Source: Bacteroidales bacterium
GTDB lineage: Bacteria > Bacteroidota > Bacteroidia > Bacteroidales > F082
Assembly: GCA_017531225.1 (NCBI GenBank)
Contig: JAFXLL010000010.1
Location: 124,001-188,000 of the forward strand
Length of the DNA: 64,000 nt
Reading direction: 5' to 3'
In this document: in pieces, positions 19,041 through 52,487 of the stretch
Layout: each line of letters begins with the position of its first letter
How positions within the stretch are numbered: the first letter of the stretch is position 1
The notes under the pieces: generated by a model
Database searches by the model: none
What the model was told of the DNA's origin: nothing
What the model saw: only the letters and a program-made list of their open reading frames with translations
Translations under genes and position numbers: made by a program

Positions 19041-19049
19041 GCAAAAATA
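19041..19049 (-). promoter_or_regulatory. Bacteroidota -7 box of the TonB receptor operon
   Basis: The minus strand reads TATTTTTGC about 31 bases before the receptor ATG, within the divergent region shared with the nuclease gene. Confidence 0.5.
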
Positions 19050-19081
19050 AAAAAAACCGAGATAGGATTGACATTATTTTT

Positions 19082-47630: not shown

Positions 47631-47639
47631 GCAAAAATA
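47631..47639 (-). promoter_or_regulatory. Bacteroidota -7 box before the unknown lipoprotein
   Basis: The minus strand reads TATTTTTGC 25 bases before the lipoprotein ATG, suggesting a separate transcript from the operon upstream. Confidence 0.5.
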
Positions 47640-47666: not shown

Positions 47667-48860
47667 TTACAAGGCTTGCAAATCTACCAATTCGCAAGGC
47701 AGGGTGATTTTCTTCGGTTCACTACGCTTGCCTATGATATAGTAATGTTGAGCGTAGGCACTATCAAACTGCTTAAGAAAAGCCTCTCGTAAGCGGGCGC
47801 ATTTCTCGTTGATGGAGTTTTTGGTCGGGTCAGTGAGGTCGCGGATGCTGTTTTCTATGTTGCTCTCAATGACACGGTTGCTGATTTGCTTATAAATGTC
47901 AAGAAGCTCCGTGTAATAGTAGCGCAATTGTTTGAAAGAAATGCCTTCAGGATGCTTTAGGAAAAGCAAGTAAACGGCTTTGGGGAGCGGCGACATGGTG
48001 ATTTCCATATTGTTGTAGTCAGGAAGGAAAAACCTGAAATCCTTAGTGATGACCAAGCGGCTCAAAGTGGGGTGTTCCTCGACAAGTTCATTCAAAAGGT
48101 GTAACTGCACACCTCTTTTCCGTAATTCGATGATTCTTTGCCGTATTTCATCTGTCAAATCATCAATGCTTTTGTCCGCAAACAAGATGTTGTCGCTGCC
48201 ATCATTGAAATAATGGTCGGCAACATCATCTTCATTTTTGGGCTTTGACAAAGCATTGAAAGAGGTTCCAGATCCTCCACGATAACTGAATGTGAGATGT
48301 TTCAGATACCTTTCAAATTGTTCGGAGAGAGGAACGGATGAATCGGCAACCAGCAGTCGATAGGTGTAATAATAGTTGCTGGGGTTTTCAGCCTCCATTT
48401 GGACAAAATGAATCAGCGCGGGGCCTTCAATGCTCCCTGAAAGAATGTGACTTTTCAGCGTTTCAATAGTGAGATTGCCATTCACAAACGAGGATTCTTG
48501 CCCAAGAAAGGGAAACATGTAATGAAGTGCTTCTTTGGAAACCTCTTGGCCGCATAGCTTTGGCAAATAGATGAAAGTAGCCTTTTTTGAAAGGAACTGC
48601 TGCTGGATTTCCTCATAGTGTTCTTGGATATACCCATTGATGGCGGGGTCATATTCGTTCTCCACATATATCACATCGTGGACATCGGGAGTGAAGGGCA
48701 GGTTGAGGTCGAATAGGAGAAATGCCTGTTCATTGGCAGTGTCATGTTGTTCAGCCGATGAAATAACTTTTTCATGCTTGACCTTTCTTACGCGCTTGAA
48801 AAACAGCAAGGCGAGAAGGATAGCGGTGAAAGCACATGTTGTTATGATGACAAAGGTCAT
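47667..48860 (-). CDS. membrane-anchored protein with conserved C-terminal domain of unknown function
   Basis: The 397-residue protein has one N-terminal span (residues about 4-21, FVIITTCAFTAILLALLFF), then a long cytoplasmic part. The C-terminal 120 residues (ITMSPLPKAVYLLFLKHPEG, DLTDPTKNSINEKCARLREA, HYYIIGKR) form a domain I associate with uncharacterised Bacteroidota proteins; the helices and the strand at the end would suit a winged-helix-like fold, but that is a guess. It is the last gene of the operon that begins with DUF1848 at 52454, 24 bases after the ADP-ribosyltransferase-like gene. Confidence 0.65.
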   Translation of the reverse strand: MTFVIITTCAFTAILLALLFFKRVRKVKHEKVISSAEQHDTANEQAFLLFDLNLPFTPDVHDVIYVENEYDPAINGYIQEHYEEIQQQFLSKKATFIYLPKLCGQEVSKEALHYMFPFLGQESSFVNGNLTIETLKSHILSGSIEGPALIHFVQMEAENPSNYYYTYRLLVADSSVPLSEQFERYLKHLTFSYRGGSGTSFNALSKPKNEDDVADHYFNDGSDNILFADKSIDDLTDEIRQRIIELRKRGVQLHLLNELVEEHPTLSRLVITKDFRFFLPDYNNMEITMSPLPKAVYLLFLKHPEGISFKQLRYYYTELLDIYKQISNRVIESNIENSIRDLTDPTKNSINEKCARLREAFLKQFDSAYAQHYYIIGKRSEPKKITLPCELVDLQAL

Positions 48861-48884
48861 GGTATGATGAGTTCGTTTTTGTAG

Positions 48885-49853
48885 TTAATAATCGCAATAA
48901 TAACCATCTATGCAAATAAAACCGCCTTTGTATTTTGTCGTTTTTAACACATCTTTAAACTTGCTTTGATCTATCCCAATTCCTTCTATTATGATGCGAT
49001 TCAGGTCATATGCCGAAGAGATTTGGGATAATAGACCAGGGTTGACTATAAAAGAATCTTTCAAAGAATACCCGATAATGTAATGTGGCAACAAACCTCC
49101 TTTTACACATATTTCTTTTTGTTCACTATACGGTGAAACTTCGTAATAAGGCAGACCTAATCTTTTTATCATCAAATCCGTATTATTAACATCATTATAC
49201 TTAATGATTTTCCTATGTCTTTCAGATGATGGAATCCATGAGACAATAATAATTCCATCTTTTTTGAATTCTTCCGCCCTTTTTAATTCTTTTGAAGTTG
49301 AAATCATGTAACTATTGGGAGAAAGTGATTTGCCAACAACATGCATCAATGAAAGATAATAGTCTTTGGCATGTTCTTTTTCTTTGTCATTTAATTTGTC
49401 AATTAACGAAATAAAACTGGTTTTGTTGGTTCCGTTAGAAAAAAACTCAAAAAAGCCTTGGTTGTTTTGGTTAAATGAATTGATGGCGGCAATGGTTCCC
49501 TGTGAATTAAACTTGTTTCCGCAGAGTTTATCGTTTAGTTTTTCAAAGATAAATTCAAATAACTCCAAAGAATGATCATCAATACAAAACAATGCATGTG
49601 TGTTTGGCTCAAAATAATGGCTTTTATCTCCAAGCGTAAACATCTTTTTTGCAAATGTCGAAATATCAAAAATGTCAGCATCGTATTCTTCAATTGATTT
49701 TGTTCCGCGATATAATATTGTCTTGTTTTTCGCTGAACAAAAGGAATCAATAAAAGTGGAAAAACTGACATAAGGAATTGAGTCATCCGTGATGGCATTT
49801 CCTTTTGAATCTTTCAATAATAAGTTGGATAGAAAAGATTTGAGTTCGTGCAT
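48885..49853 (-). CDS. putative ADP-ribosyltransferase-fold protein
   Basis: The 322-residue protein has no signal peptide or membrane span. Three motifs occur in the order and approximate spacing of R-S-E class ADP-ribosyltransferases: ILYRGTKS with Arg49, ISTSKELKRAEEF with Ser185-Thr186-Ser187, and SPYSEQKEICVKGG with Gln245-Lys246-Glu247 (a QxE-type motif), followed by a hydrophobic strand (HYIIGYSL). If real, it would use NAD to modify a protein or nucleic acid. An FRG domain is an alternative reading of the N-terminal motif. It lies 5 bases after the Sel1-repeat gene and 24 before the anchored unknown protein. Confidence 0.5.
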   Translation of the reverse strand: MHELKSFLSNLLLKDSKGNAITDDSIPYVSFSTFIDSFCSAKNKTILYRGTKSIEEYDADIFDISTFAKKMFTLGDKSHYFEPNTHALFCIDDHSLELFEFIFEKLNDKLCGNKFNSQGTIAAINSFNQNNQGFFEFFSNGTNKTSFISLIDKLNDKEKEHAKDYYLSLMHVVGKSLSPNSYMISTSKELKRAEEFKKDGIIIVSWIPSSERHRKIIKYNDVNNTDLMIKRLGLPYYEVSPYSEQKEICVKGGLLPHYIIGYSLKDSFIVNPGLLSQISSAYDLNRIIIEGIGIDQSKFKDVLKTTKYKGGFICIDGYYCDY

Positions 49854-49858
49854 AAATG

Positions 49859-50992
49859 TTATTTACCTTTGTTTATTCGTGCTAATAAACCAGAGGCTTT
49901 CTTTAACCCTTGGTTTGCTGCTTTTTTTATCCAGAATAGAGCGGTAACATCACTTTTAATAACGCCATTCCCCTTTGCATATAATAATCCCAATAAAAAC
50001 TGCGCCTCGGCATCCCCCTGTTCTGCCGCTTTTTGATACCATTTTGCCGCAATACTATAATTTTGTTCAACCCCAATTCCTTGTTGATAACAACCACCAA
50101 CAAGACCTTGCCCAGTAGAATTTCCTTGCTCTGCTGCCATTTTGTACAATTCAAAGGCCTTATTAATGTCTTTTTCAACACCTTCGCCTTTTTCGCAACG
50201 CTTTCCATATCGCCATAGAGCTTCGCTATAACCTTTATTTGCTGCCTTTTTATACCACTCTGCTGCTTTTGTCATATCTTTTTCTACTCCATAACCAAAA
50301 TGATAGCATATTCCTAAACTAGCCATTGCTCTTACATTTTCAGATTTTGCAGAAGCCAAATACCACTTCAACGCTTTGTTCTTGTCTATTTCAACACCAT
50401 ATCCTTTTTGGTAACAACAACCAAGACACATTTGTGCTTCCGAATTATCGCTATTTGCGGCCATTTTAAACCATTTAAAAGCCTCTGATTTGTTGTTTAG
50501 TTTCTCACAATATAATCGAGCTAAATCATACTGTGCTTCTACATCACCTTCTTTTGCTAATCCATAGTATTCAACAAGTTCTTGGTCTGTATTATAACTA
50601 ATGTCGAGTTTTCCCAAAAAGAAACAGTTTGTTAGACAAGTCCAAGTCTTATCTGACCTTAATTGGAATTTATCCAAAAGTTCAGGCATTGATGAATCAG
50701 CATTCAAAAGTGTAGGAAATTCTATGATTCTTGAATCCCTATTGGAGTTGCCAATAAATGGGCTTACACAAACAAAACGATTGTAACCATTAACATTTGA
50801 GTTAATCAAATTAGCAAATTTCTTTAAGTCAAATGTCGACATATCCAACACATTGGAAAAAATATGCAAAGTGGGTGTTTCTTCGCTGCAAACAATGTCG
50901 TCTTGGGTCAAGTCGTCAAACTTCTTGTTTACGGTCTTAATTTCAGCATCAAAAAAAATGTTGAAACATGAAGCGCAGCTCGTTTCAAACAA
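49859..50992 (-). CDS. C-terminal part of a frameshifted methyltransferase-Sel1 repeat protein
   Basis: The frame begins at an internal ATG, but its first recognisable residues (DAEIKTVNKKFDDLT, TPTLHIFSNVLDMSTF, NGYNRFVCVSPFI) continue the methyltransferase fold encoded just upstream in another frame. From about residue 145 there are six Sel1-like helical repeats of about 36 residues (for example AQYDLARLY, AQMCLGCCYQKGYGV, KAAEWYKKAANKG). Sel1 repeats form a superhelical protein-binding scaffold. The first 14 residues are probably not part of the true protein. Restoring one base in the A8 tract at 50951-50958 would join both parts into a protein of about 508 residues. Confidence 0.7.
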   Translation of the reverse strand: MFETSCASCFNIFFDAEIKTVNKKFDDLTQDDIVCSEETPTLHIFSNVLDMSTFDLKKFANLINSNVNGYNRFVCVSPFIGNSNRDSRIIEFPTLLNADSSMPELLDKFQLRSDKTWTCLTNCFFLGKLDISYNTDQELVEYYGLAKEGDVEAQYDLARLYCEKLNNKSEAFKWFKMAANSDNSEAQMCLGCCYQKGYGVEIDKNKALKWYLASAKSENVRAMASLGICYHFGYGVEKDMTKAAEWYKKAANKGYSEALWRYGKRCEKGEGVEKDINKAFELYKMAAEQGNSTGQGLVGGCYQQGIGVEQNYSIAAKWYQKAAEQGDAEAQFLLGLLYAKGNGVIKSDVTALFWIKKAANQGLKKASGLLARINKGK

Positions 50993-51387
50993 ATATCAGA
51001 AGGCTCAATCAAGGTAATAGTCTTTACCTTTTGCGAATAGCCATTTTCACGAAGGAAATCTGCATAACACATTGTGCCCAAAGCTTGCCCGCATCCGTAG
51101 TCAACAATGTTGATTTCAGGTAGTTCAAGGAATTCTTTTGGCAGTTTACCAAAAGCATATTCCAATTTGGCTTGGTGCATCTTGCCGAAAGCATAAAGAT
51201 AGGCGGTCATTTGTGGCTCGGAATCCAAAATGTCAATGCCTCGATTAAGGGCTTCATATAGTTCGTCTTGCAATGCTTGCGGCAGTTCGCGGTAAAATTG
51301 GGTGGACAAGTCCCTCACTTTGTCAAAAGTGGGATTGCCTATGTATTTCAGTTTGTAGGCGTAATTGGCGCTTTGTTCTATCATCAT
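50929..51387 (-). CDS. N-terminal part of a frameshifted SAM-dependent methyltransferase
   Basis: The 152-residue frame carries an N-terminal helical region (YRELPQALQDELYEALNRG) and a class I methyltransferase motif I, INIVDYGCGQALGT (residues about 93-104), then TLIEPSDICLKRAALHVS. After Phe145 the frame runs into unrelated residues and stops, where the other frame resumes with DAEIKTVNK. The switch coincides with eight consecutive T residues on the coding strand. It may be a true pseudogene, a phase-variable gene or a sequencing error. The start lies 2 bases after the DUF1848 stop. Confidence 0.7.
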   Translation of the reverse strand: MMIEQSANYAYKLKYIGNPTFDKVRDLSTQFYRELPQALQDELYEALNRGIDILDSEPQMTAYLYAFGKMHQAKLEYAFGKLPKEFLELPEINIVDYGCGQALGTMCYADFLRENGYSQKVKTITLIEPSDICLKRAALHVSTFFLMLKLRP

Positions 51388-51389
51388 AA

Positions 51390-52454
51390 TCAGTAGTCAG
51401 TTATAGTTTCCCCATCTGGGTTCATTTCGTGTCTCTTATAATTCTCAACAGCCTTTTCCTTACTCGCATTAGCATAGCAATACTCGCACAAATGCGGGCA
51501 GGTATTGTACTCGCCAATATCTTTGCTCACCATGCAGCCGCAGAACTGCCGCTGGCCTTTATCACGGTTGTCCTTTTTCTTGATGGCGTATTGCGTTTCG
51601 CTGAGTTTTATGGCATTGTCGGGAATCGGCTCTGTGCCAAACAACGAGTTTTCAACGGTCTTTATTTCCACACCGAGGAAGTCCATCAGGGCTTTGTCGT
51701 GGTGGGCGAAGCGAATCATTAAGTCGTCATCCACGCAGTGGTTGTGTTGGATGCCGTATGGCTCAAGGTCAATCTTCTCTCCACAGATGGCCAACTGGTA
51801 ATGCCACTTCTGGTTGAGTTCGGAAAGCCTTCGGGCAAAGTCCTCCATCTGCGGCACCGTCCATTCTTGATAGTTCACATGGCTTTTCTCAAGGTTAGCT
51901 TTCACCTTTTTATAAAGGGCGATGTCGGCATAACTGAAAACAAGTTTCTCTGTGTAGTCTTGCAGTTGGTCGCCAATATTTTCCACTTTTCTCAGCAGGT
52001 CGTCAATGGCGATTTGGTCGGTCAAGATTAAAGGATCGAAACGCCAAATCACACGACCTTTGCCCAACTTGTCCACCAACCTTTTGAAAGTGTCAATCCT
52101 TTCCTCCAAAGACGGAACGCCCTTTTCCAAGCCTTCTTTCTCGTAATCGTTCAGCGTGTATTGGATATAGCAGCCGATGTTCCTTTCTTTCAGTTCATCA
52201 AGGTGCTCGAGCAGTGGCTTCGGGTTCTTTGACCAAAACACGATGAAGCGGCAATTCTCATACGAAACGAAACTTTTCACGCCGTTGAAGGGATTAGTCC
52301 AAGCGGAATAGCCCACTTTCAGCCGATGGAAAAACCAGTCGGCATAGAAAGCAGGAATGTCCGTGCTTCTACTCGCTGAGATGATGACGGGGGCCTGTGC
52401 CTCAGCCATCATGCCATTATCTCGCTGGATTTGTGTCTTTTGCCATTGCGCCAT
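51390..52454 (-). CDS. DUF1848 family Fe-S-type protein
   Basis: The 354-residue protein shows the DUF1848 signature IISASRSTDIPAFYADW, TNPFN, FIVFWSKNPKP and RVIWRFDPL. The C-terminus carries a cysteine cluster, FCGCMVSKDIG, then NTCPHLCEYCYAN (Cys305, 307, 319, 323, 326), which should bind a metal, probably an Fe-S cluster. The family has been suggested to be related to radical SAM enzymes, but no activity is established. ATGs at 52454, 52412 and 52409 are possible starts. It is the first gene of a four-gene operon. Confidence 0.85.
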   Translation of the reverse strand: MAQWQKTQIQRDNGMMAEAQAPVIISASRSTDIPAFYADWFFHRLKVGYSAWTNPFNGVKSFVSYENCRFIVFWSKNPKPLLEHLDELKERNIGCYIQYTLNDYEKEGLEKGVPSLEERIDTFKRLVDKLGKGRVIWRFDPLILTDQIAIDDLLRKVENIGDQLQDYTEKLVFSYADIALYKKVKANLEKSHVNYQEWTVPQMEDFARRLSELNQKWHYQLAICGEKIDLEPYGIQHNHCVDDDLMIRFAHHDKALMDFLGVEIKTVENSLFGTEPIPDNAIKLSETQYAIKKKDNRDKGQRQFCGCMVSKDIGEYNTCPHLCEYCYANASKEKAVENYKRHEMNPDGETITDY

Positions 52455-52478
52455 CTGTCACTTCGTTTTGTTTTCACC

Positions 52479-52487
52479 GCAAAGATA
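52479..52487 (-). promoter_or_regulatory. Bacteroidota -7 box of the DUF1848 operon
   Basis: The minus strand reads TATCTTTGC 25 bases before the ATG at 52454. It would drive the DUF1848-methyltransferase/Sel1-ART-like-anchored protein operon. Confidence 0.55.

Follow-up and report, generated by a model that had tools for sequence, protein, structure and literature searches.

The model collection PADLOC contains a reverse-transcriptase-associated DUF1848 model, RTasDUF1848, so finding DUF1848 (Pfam PF08902) in the vicinity of defence genes is not entirely without precedent. Other points of reference are the Scabin-like ADP-ribosyltransferases (ARTs) of the R-S-E class (PF22596), the two-domain 2CompART/2CompARG arrangement (PF22546/PF22545) and the ARG-centred host systems (Iyer et al., 2022; PMC9503650). 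In the part of that paper relevant here, conflict systems are recognized by criteria similar to those used below, and variable modules are likewise grouped around a core. The present study concerns a locus on the minus strand of a 64,000-nucleotide stretch, called the window, of a Bacteroidales genome (assembly GCA_017531225.1, contig JAFXLL010000010.1, positions 124,001 to 188,000; genome of 2.58 Mb in 14 contigs, completeness 98.4%). Here, a DUF1848 gene is followed by genes for a class I S-adenosylmethionine (SAM) methyltransferase (MTase) with Sel1 repeats, for a putative ART and for a variable protein, P0005. Judging from gene content and comparison with relatives, there is about an even chance that this locus represents a modular conflict system in one of its versions, probably directed against phages, with DUF1848 and the MTase as its core.

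Conservation of the DUF1848-methyltransferase pair

The first-pass annotation of this DNA had taken the four genes as a single system. Among the 174 genomes of the family that were searched, the whole set was found in the window genome only. Relatives of the DUF1848 protein P0001 are present in 39 of these genomes, those of the first half of the MTase domain (P0002) in 30, and those of P0005 in 53, often through its C-terminal part only. The ART-like protein P0004 has matches with E ≤ 1e-3 in four, one of which is very weak, and the two other clear ones both come without the complete set. What travels together is DUF1848 and the MTase. A DUF1848 gene lies within 8 kb and on the same strand in 29 of the 32 family MTase loci, which corresponds to 29 of 30 genomes (Fisher 2e-23, kinship of the genomes not being corrected for), and two of the three remaining loci are near a contig end. 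Conversely, 14 of 43 DUF1848 places have no MTase nearby. The co-occurrence check that had been proposed for the four genes thus gave a divided answer: within 10 kb of the MTase, homologues of the ART-like protein are scattered (2/32) and those of P0005 largely so (11/32), whereas the DUF1848-MTase pair is kept. The conserved core is this pair, not the set of four genes. The 32 MTase loci were drawn from 36 places, with the second places in G090 and G119 and two in G117 excluded; the neighbourhood count further comprised 43 of 53 DUF1848 places, second ones, mostly C-terminal fragments, being dropped, and the 18 strongest P0005 places.

The pairing extends beyond the family. A wider set was composed of the best 80 of 386 counted relatives of the MTase domain in named genomes, mostly metagenome-assembled genomes of rumen and gut Bacteroidales, together with four viral contigs. 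In 62 of these 84 loci, DUF1848 is encoded upstream on the same strand, within 60 bp of the MTase gene or overlapping it in 45 of the 62, and in two records of one sequence both proteins are fused in a single frame. An upstream DUF1848 gene is not seen in 20 loci, seven of which begin less than 2 kb from a contig end, while three have the gene on the opposite strand. As the family set (L097-L136) and the named-genome set (L137-L216) have contigs in common, and L219/L220 and L165/L166 are duplicates, the counts are not independent. At the level of the phylum, DUF1848 was found in 75 of 395 genomes, 66 of them belonging to one family, and a strong MTase match (E below 1e-30) in four, three of which also contain DUF1848.

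Downstream of the pair, seven of 124 loci contain a second DUF1848 3' end (L115, L129, L130, L131, L132, L164 and L175, L115 and its duplicate L179 being taken as one). In L115, L129, L131 and L132, the first codons of an MTase gene are joined to this second 3' end. Such joints are read here as scars of collapsed tandem DUF1848-MTase units.

Exchange of tails and neighbouring genes

The segment fused behind the MTase domain is exchanged among LRR_5, Sel1 and SF1/SF2 helicase modules at the end of the domain. Pfam scans of 66 C-termini revealed LRR_5 in 43, Sel1 in 21, DEAD in three, UvrD in two and Fib_succ_major in two; from the 84 loci, five cut by contig ends, two duplicates, two with N in the sequence and nine with a short or no C-terminus had been dropped. 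Within the family, single scans identified a UvrD-type helicase in L100 and DEAD-type helicases in L119 and L123, and the fusion in L119 additionally contains a nuclease-like (REase-like) MTES_1575 stretch, below the cut-off of that profile. When the tail types, labelled by small HMMs, were placed on a quick tree of the MTase domain with several long branches (80 of 84 rows, 78 of them labelled), at least 18 changes were required, as compared with a possible minimum of 6 and with 41.6 for shuffled labels. Thus, tails are inherited as well as swapped.

The position of the exchange is illustrated by L157, with a Sel1 tail and a gene cut by the contig end, and L158 (Bacteroidales bacterium KHT7), with an LRR tail. 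Their DNA is ~96% identical from ~250 bases upstream of the gene to base ~750-800, and the identity falls to background ~50-100 bases later. More generally, all eight pairs with different tails and more than 85% identity at nucleotides 1-420 are below 50% at nucleotides 840-1140, seven of these pairs having one member, L143, in common. In the genus of the window genome, identity among 17 MTase sequences is 0.82-0.83 over residues 1-60 and drops to 0.25-0.49 over residues 241-300; the DUF1848 proteins of 14 loci have a mean identity of 0.86.

The genes around the DUF1848-MTase pair are exchanged too. Between the two genes, after both, or adjoining them, Pfam scans of single representatives identified a YhcG nuclease, an SLFN AlbA_2 protein, trypsin, TerB, AAA_14, AAA_15, DUF2971, radical SAM, PLD, DUF6602 and ADP-ribosylglycohydrolase proteins, and a RES match just under the cut-off. 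In L207, the gene directly before the MTase gene encodes both 2CompART (4.5e-34) and 2CompARG (5.6e-26) domains; five more loci have a similar MTase gene, the upstream part being truncated in some of them, and the Pfam scan covered L207. In L219, the third gene upstream of the pair encodes a GmrSD restriction protein; on the viral contig L218 (353-4950), the pair is preceded by genes for a reverse transcriptase and a GH108 endolysin. The gene order in L218 may be of relevance to the RTasDUF1848 model of PADLOC.

Two further arrangements were observed. A small gene with a CX3CX2C motif overlaps the 3' end of the MTase gene in L182, L186-L189, L192, L198, L205 and L212, where the MTase tails are of the Sel1 and LRR types; the one product scanned, from L182, is a radical SAM protein according to Pfam. 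In L107, L108 and L134, genes that by eye look Nudix-HTH-like, vWA/macro-like and ADP-ribosylglycohydrolase-like are located upstream of DUF1848.

The unit in the window

As the first-pass annotation had described, the four genes are closely spaced on the minus strand, with intergenic gaps of 2, 5 and 24 bases, behind a -7-like box (Table 1). Since TANNTTTG occurs 64 times in the window where 37 copies are expected, this single copy is weak evidence. A second such site is located ahead of P0006, and the unit may therefore end after P0005, or restart there. The cysteine-cluster protein of the annotation is indeed a DUF1848 protein, and P0005, annotated as membrane-anchored, opens, as judged by eye, with a hydrophobic stretch.

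Table 1. Features of the locus and its flank (positions in the window)
Feature	Position	Strand	Description	Evidence
-7-like box	52480..52487	-	TATCTTTG	25 bases ahead of DUF1848 start
P0001	51390..52454	-	DUF1848 protein, 354 aa, C-terminal CxC and CX3CX2C cysteines	Pfam PF08902 1.3e-92; PADLOC RTasDUF1848 3.6e-39
P0002	50929..51387	-	N-terminal part of class I MTase, 152 aa, leaves frame at T8 run	Motifs DYGCGQ, IEPS, HxxSNxLD in 14-relative alignment
Homopolymer	50951..50958	.	8 bases, T8 on coding strand (A8 on + strand), MTase frame break	Site in one open frame in 18/18 other family loci reaching it
P0003	49859..50992	-	Remaining MTase domain and six Sel1 repeats (~49862-50578), 377 aa, other frame	Sel1 1.8e-51
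P0004	48885..49853	-	ART-like protein, 322 aa	R49, S185, [QE]xE247 in 5/5 aligned sequences
P0005	47667..48860	-	397 aa, hydrophobic N-terminus, variable passenger	No Pfam family above cut-off
Second -7-like site	47632..47639	-	TATTTTTG, ahead of P0006	
P0006	46878..47606	-	Resembles a lipoprotein by eye	Recurs beside P0005 in some relatives
P0007	45522..46862	-		Recurs beside P0005 in some relatives

The shared N-terminal MTase domain of ~250 residues carries the motifs DYGCGQ/DWGCGQ, IEPS, HxFSNxLD and FVCVGP. In 14 diverse members, the residues expected for a class I SAM MTase were found, D96, G98, C99 and G100 being invariant and E128 conserved in at least 90%. In Pfam, the profile Methyltransf_23 scored 15.7 bits, below its cut-off of 27. 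Against the PDB, the MTase profile gave very weak rows, including YecO (0.11) and tRNA cmo5U34 methyltransferase (0.39 and 0.65), and the top rows, a Rho exchange factor (0.019), are surely due to chance.

The fusion of MTase and Sel1 repeats that had been annotated exists as one frame in relatives, but not in the window. There, the first half of the MTase domain (P0002) is separated at a T8 run from the second half, which is encoded together with six Sel1 stretches in another, overlapping frame (P0003). Runs of at least eight A or T residues are found at one other position of the 64 kb, 19049-19056. Identity of at least 60% was found in 20 family loci. Eighteen of these cross the T8 site with one stop-free match, the remaining two being the window itself and L122, whose match stops short of the site; in the wider set, which overlaps with the family set, the frame is open there in 34 of 34 such loci. 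A programmed frameshift at the run is possible but not claimed: the RNA structure downstream of the run lacks significance (z -1.23), and no such run is present in 17 relatives, a comparison restricted to open reading frames of more than 350 aa, a filter that would mask an interruption at this position. The open-frame checks were made without a length filter. Decay, phase variation, slippage and an error of the assembly are the candidate causes of the break, among which one consensus sequence cannot discriminate; the unit would accordingly be off, yield a little product through slippage, or have been read wrongly during assembly.

The unit in this genome might be a relic, with a genuinely disrupted MTase frame and passenger genes downstream of it, which seems rather doubtful but deserves to be taken seriously. 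A relic would agree with the location of the break at a site that is open in each of the 18 other family loci extending so far, and with signs that such loci do decay, i.e., MTase frames broken at other places in L116 and L122, and the remnants of collapsed tandems. Against a relic speak the intact frames of DUF1848, the ART-like protein and P0005; moreover, a homopolymer error in the assembly, or ribosomal or transcriptional slippage, for which the RNA structure score is the one given above, would keep the gene working.

The annotation of P0004 had been based on YRG, STS and QxE motifs, and these are present. Four homologues were found, two in genus relatives (~50% identity) and one each in Paraburkholderia and on a Vibrio plasmid (~25%). 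R49, S185 and E247 are invariant in all five sequences, with the glutamate in an [QE]xE motif in 5/5. As the same alignment contains 26 further invariant columns, the R-S-[QE]xE pattern is suggestive and does not amount to proof. The Scabin-like profile matched weakly near the glutamate motif in two of the five sequences (E 0.003 and 0.015, below the cut-off) and did not match P0004 itself. No Pfam ART family matches P0004, and PDB searches with the protein and its profile yielded no relative above the threshold; the assignment as a putative ART of the R-S-E class is thus based on the residue pattern. No relative of P0004 was detected in the scan of viral contigs or in the phage collection.

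The Vibrio homologue is encoded within a cassette-like array on a V. parahaemolyticus plasmid (L006:7569-8537), and genes that by eye are TniQ/TnsD-like are located near the Paraburkholderia homologue (L005:10115-11870). A second group of proteins (c66, in L137/L145) appeared ART-like by eye but is not claimed as an ART family: the position of the catalytic glutamate is occupied by glutamine, BLASTP against P0004 gave nothing, and Pfam gave nothing useful.

P0005 gave weak matches to DrmC in PADLOC (E 0.006-0.007). Its C-terminal ~130 residues (window 47667-48100) recur in separate proteins, mostly open frames of ~450-550 aa, in many genomes of the genus. P0005-P0007 recur together at some related loci.

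The alignment of 39 DUF1848 proteins shows invariant SASRSTDIP-type and WRFDP motifs, and CxC and CX3CX2C motifs near the C-terminus. The latter, which is of the radical SAM type and is present in 38 of the 39, raises the question of DUF1848 being a radical SAM enzyme in permuted form, since in P0001 it is located at residues 319-326 of 354, not on the N-terminal side of the barrel as in radical SAM proteins. The radical SAM profile of Pfam scored 13.5 bits with P0001 (cut-off 29.5). Of the 39 proteins, 32 could be permuted. Permuted copies scored 13.9, 12.6 and 20.9 bits, compared with 11.3 and 13.5 for body-reversed controls, and three more permuted relatives gave no match to this profile. 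A clear rise was obtained solely with L219, where permutation improved the E value from 0.011 to 4.4e-4; in L213, the body-reversed control outscored the permuted copy. In PA0069/Rv2578c-type radical SAM proteins (NCBIfam NF033668 and NF038135), NPYRGCEHGCIYCYAR resembles EYNTCPHLCEYCYAN of DUF1848 (hhalign probability 92.5 over 21 columns), but the motif is at the opposite end of the protein and the rest does not rise above shuffled controls. The permuted DUF1848 profile aligned over 182 collinear columns with a score of 58.2, against 57.8 for the unpermuted profile and 58.3 for the body-reversed control, and the body alone, without the motif, scored 18.1, within the range of shuffled sequences (median 16.1, maximum 26.4). 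A permuted radical SAM fold is, therefore, not put forward as a firm claim and stays a lead only, as the controls give no support beyond the motif. PDB searches with DUF1848 gave nothing usable.

Interpretation and comparison with known systems

Exchange of tail and neighbour genes among close relatives is a pattern common in bacterial immune systems. The swapping of tails near a fixed border, the exchange of effectors, the versions with helicases, the patchy distribution and the occurrence on viral contigs argue for a conflict system built on the DUF1848-MTase core. The suggestion of a conflict system in the first-pass annotation is thereby upheld in part: the mosaic make-up, the helicase-fused relatives and the changing effector-like neighbours agree with it, whereas the idea of a four-gene system has to be abandoned. 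More tentatively, and at somewhat less than an even chance, the loci may form an undescribed family of immune loci, in which DUF1848, perhaps a radical SAM enzyme with a circular permutation, and the MTase form a constant core, while recombination at one fixed domain boundary replaces the tails and the effectors, some of the latter of an NAD/ADP-ribose kind.

In such a system, the tail, i.e., a repeat or helicase module and here the Sel1 repeats, would recognize a component of the invader. DUF1848 and the MTase might thereupon produce a modification or signal that depends on SAM, or else guard one, and this would release the downstream effector, here the putative ART. The effector, in turn, could stop growth or modify targets of the phage or the host.

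Several observations weigh against a conflict system. LRR and Sel1 are general binding repeats, and among the same-tail pairs with more than 85% identity at nucleotides 1-420, 8 of 39 also drop below 50% at nucleotides 840-1140. The ART-like gene is beside the pair in two of the 32 family MTase loci, and the local MTase frame is broken. Among P0001-P0007, only DUF1848 is matched well by PADLOC, the matches of P0005 (DrmC, 0.006) and P0003 (PtuA, 0.14) being weak. The upstream flanks in the genus are, by eye, mostly composed of housekeeping-type genes. Finally, 72 of the 75 DUF1848-bearing genomes of the phylum lack a strong MTase match, and the frequent occurrence of DUF1848 on its own fits a housekeeping role.

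The last two of these points, together with the appearance of YecO and tRNA cmo5U34 methyltransferase among the very weak PDB rows, also favour another explanation: DUF1848 and the MTase could be a metabolic or an RNA- or protein-modification pair, with Sel1 and LRR tails as ordinary adaptors and the mosaic as a product of the genome plasticity of rumen Bacteroidales. This is unlikely, because module exchange as sharp as that at the domain border is unusual for housekeeping pairs, and because helicase fusions, effector-like neighbours, a patchy presence (30/174) and the occurrence on four viral contigs all speak against it. Quite improbable is a store of inter-bacterial toxins and immunity proteins, with the ART-like protein as an antibacterial toxin or captured cassette and P0005-P0007 as immunity or surface proteins that have nothing to do with the pair: it would suit the cassette-like array and the TniQ/TnsD-like genes near ART-like homologues and the joint recurrence of P0005-P0007, but inspection of P0004 by eye revealed no obvious secretion signal, and a gap of 5 bases separates its gene from the preceding MTase gene, an order that is also found in G056/L141 (14-base gap).

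If the DUF1848-MTase core is an immune device, as preferred here, DUF1848 and an unassigned MTase family would become linked to defence in Bacteroidota, and the fusion of such MTases to BspA-type LRR or Sel1 repeats would be explained. Tail specificity could then be tested directly on natural pairs such as L157/L158, whose main difference is the sensor tail.

In the open-access papers searched, no mention of DUF1848 and no described combination of DUF1848, MTase and tail was found; subscription papers and preprints lay outside the scope, so that this absence is weak evidence. As far as the literature was searched, a DUF1848-MTase core that carries exchangeable tails appears to be new. P0004 and its homologues share the R, S and [QE]xE residues with the Scabin-like R-S-E enzymes, but P0004 differs in having no match of its own to PF22596 and no relative in the PDB. 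The 2CompART and 2CompARG domains occur together in the gene before the MTase in L207, whereas P0004 is matched by neither and represents another architecture. With the ARG-centred systems, some relatives share the genes upstream of DUF1848 that by eye are Nudix-HTH-like, vWA-like and ADP-ribosylglycohydrolase-like. However, section 3.8 of that paper describes these systems without a DUF1848 or MTase core, and the words 'methyltransferase' and 'methylase' are absent from its main text (PMC9503650). A further point of comparison is the RTasDUF1848 system: P0001 matches both its PADLOC model and PF08902, and a reverse transcriptase is present a few genes upstream of the pair in L218. A Pfam scan of the seven window proteins P0001-P0007 revealed no reverse transcriptase; in the window, the partner of DUF1848 is the MTase instead.

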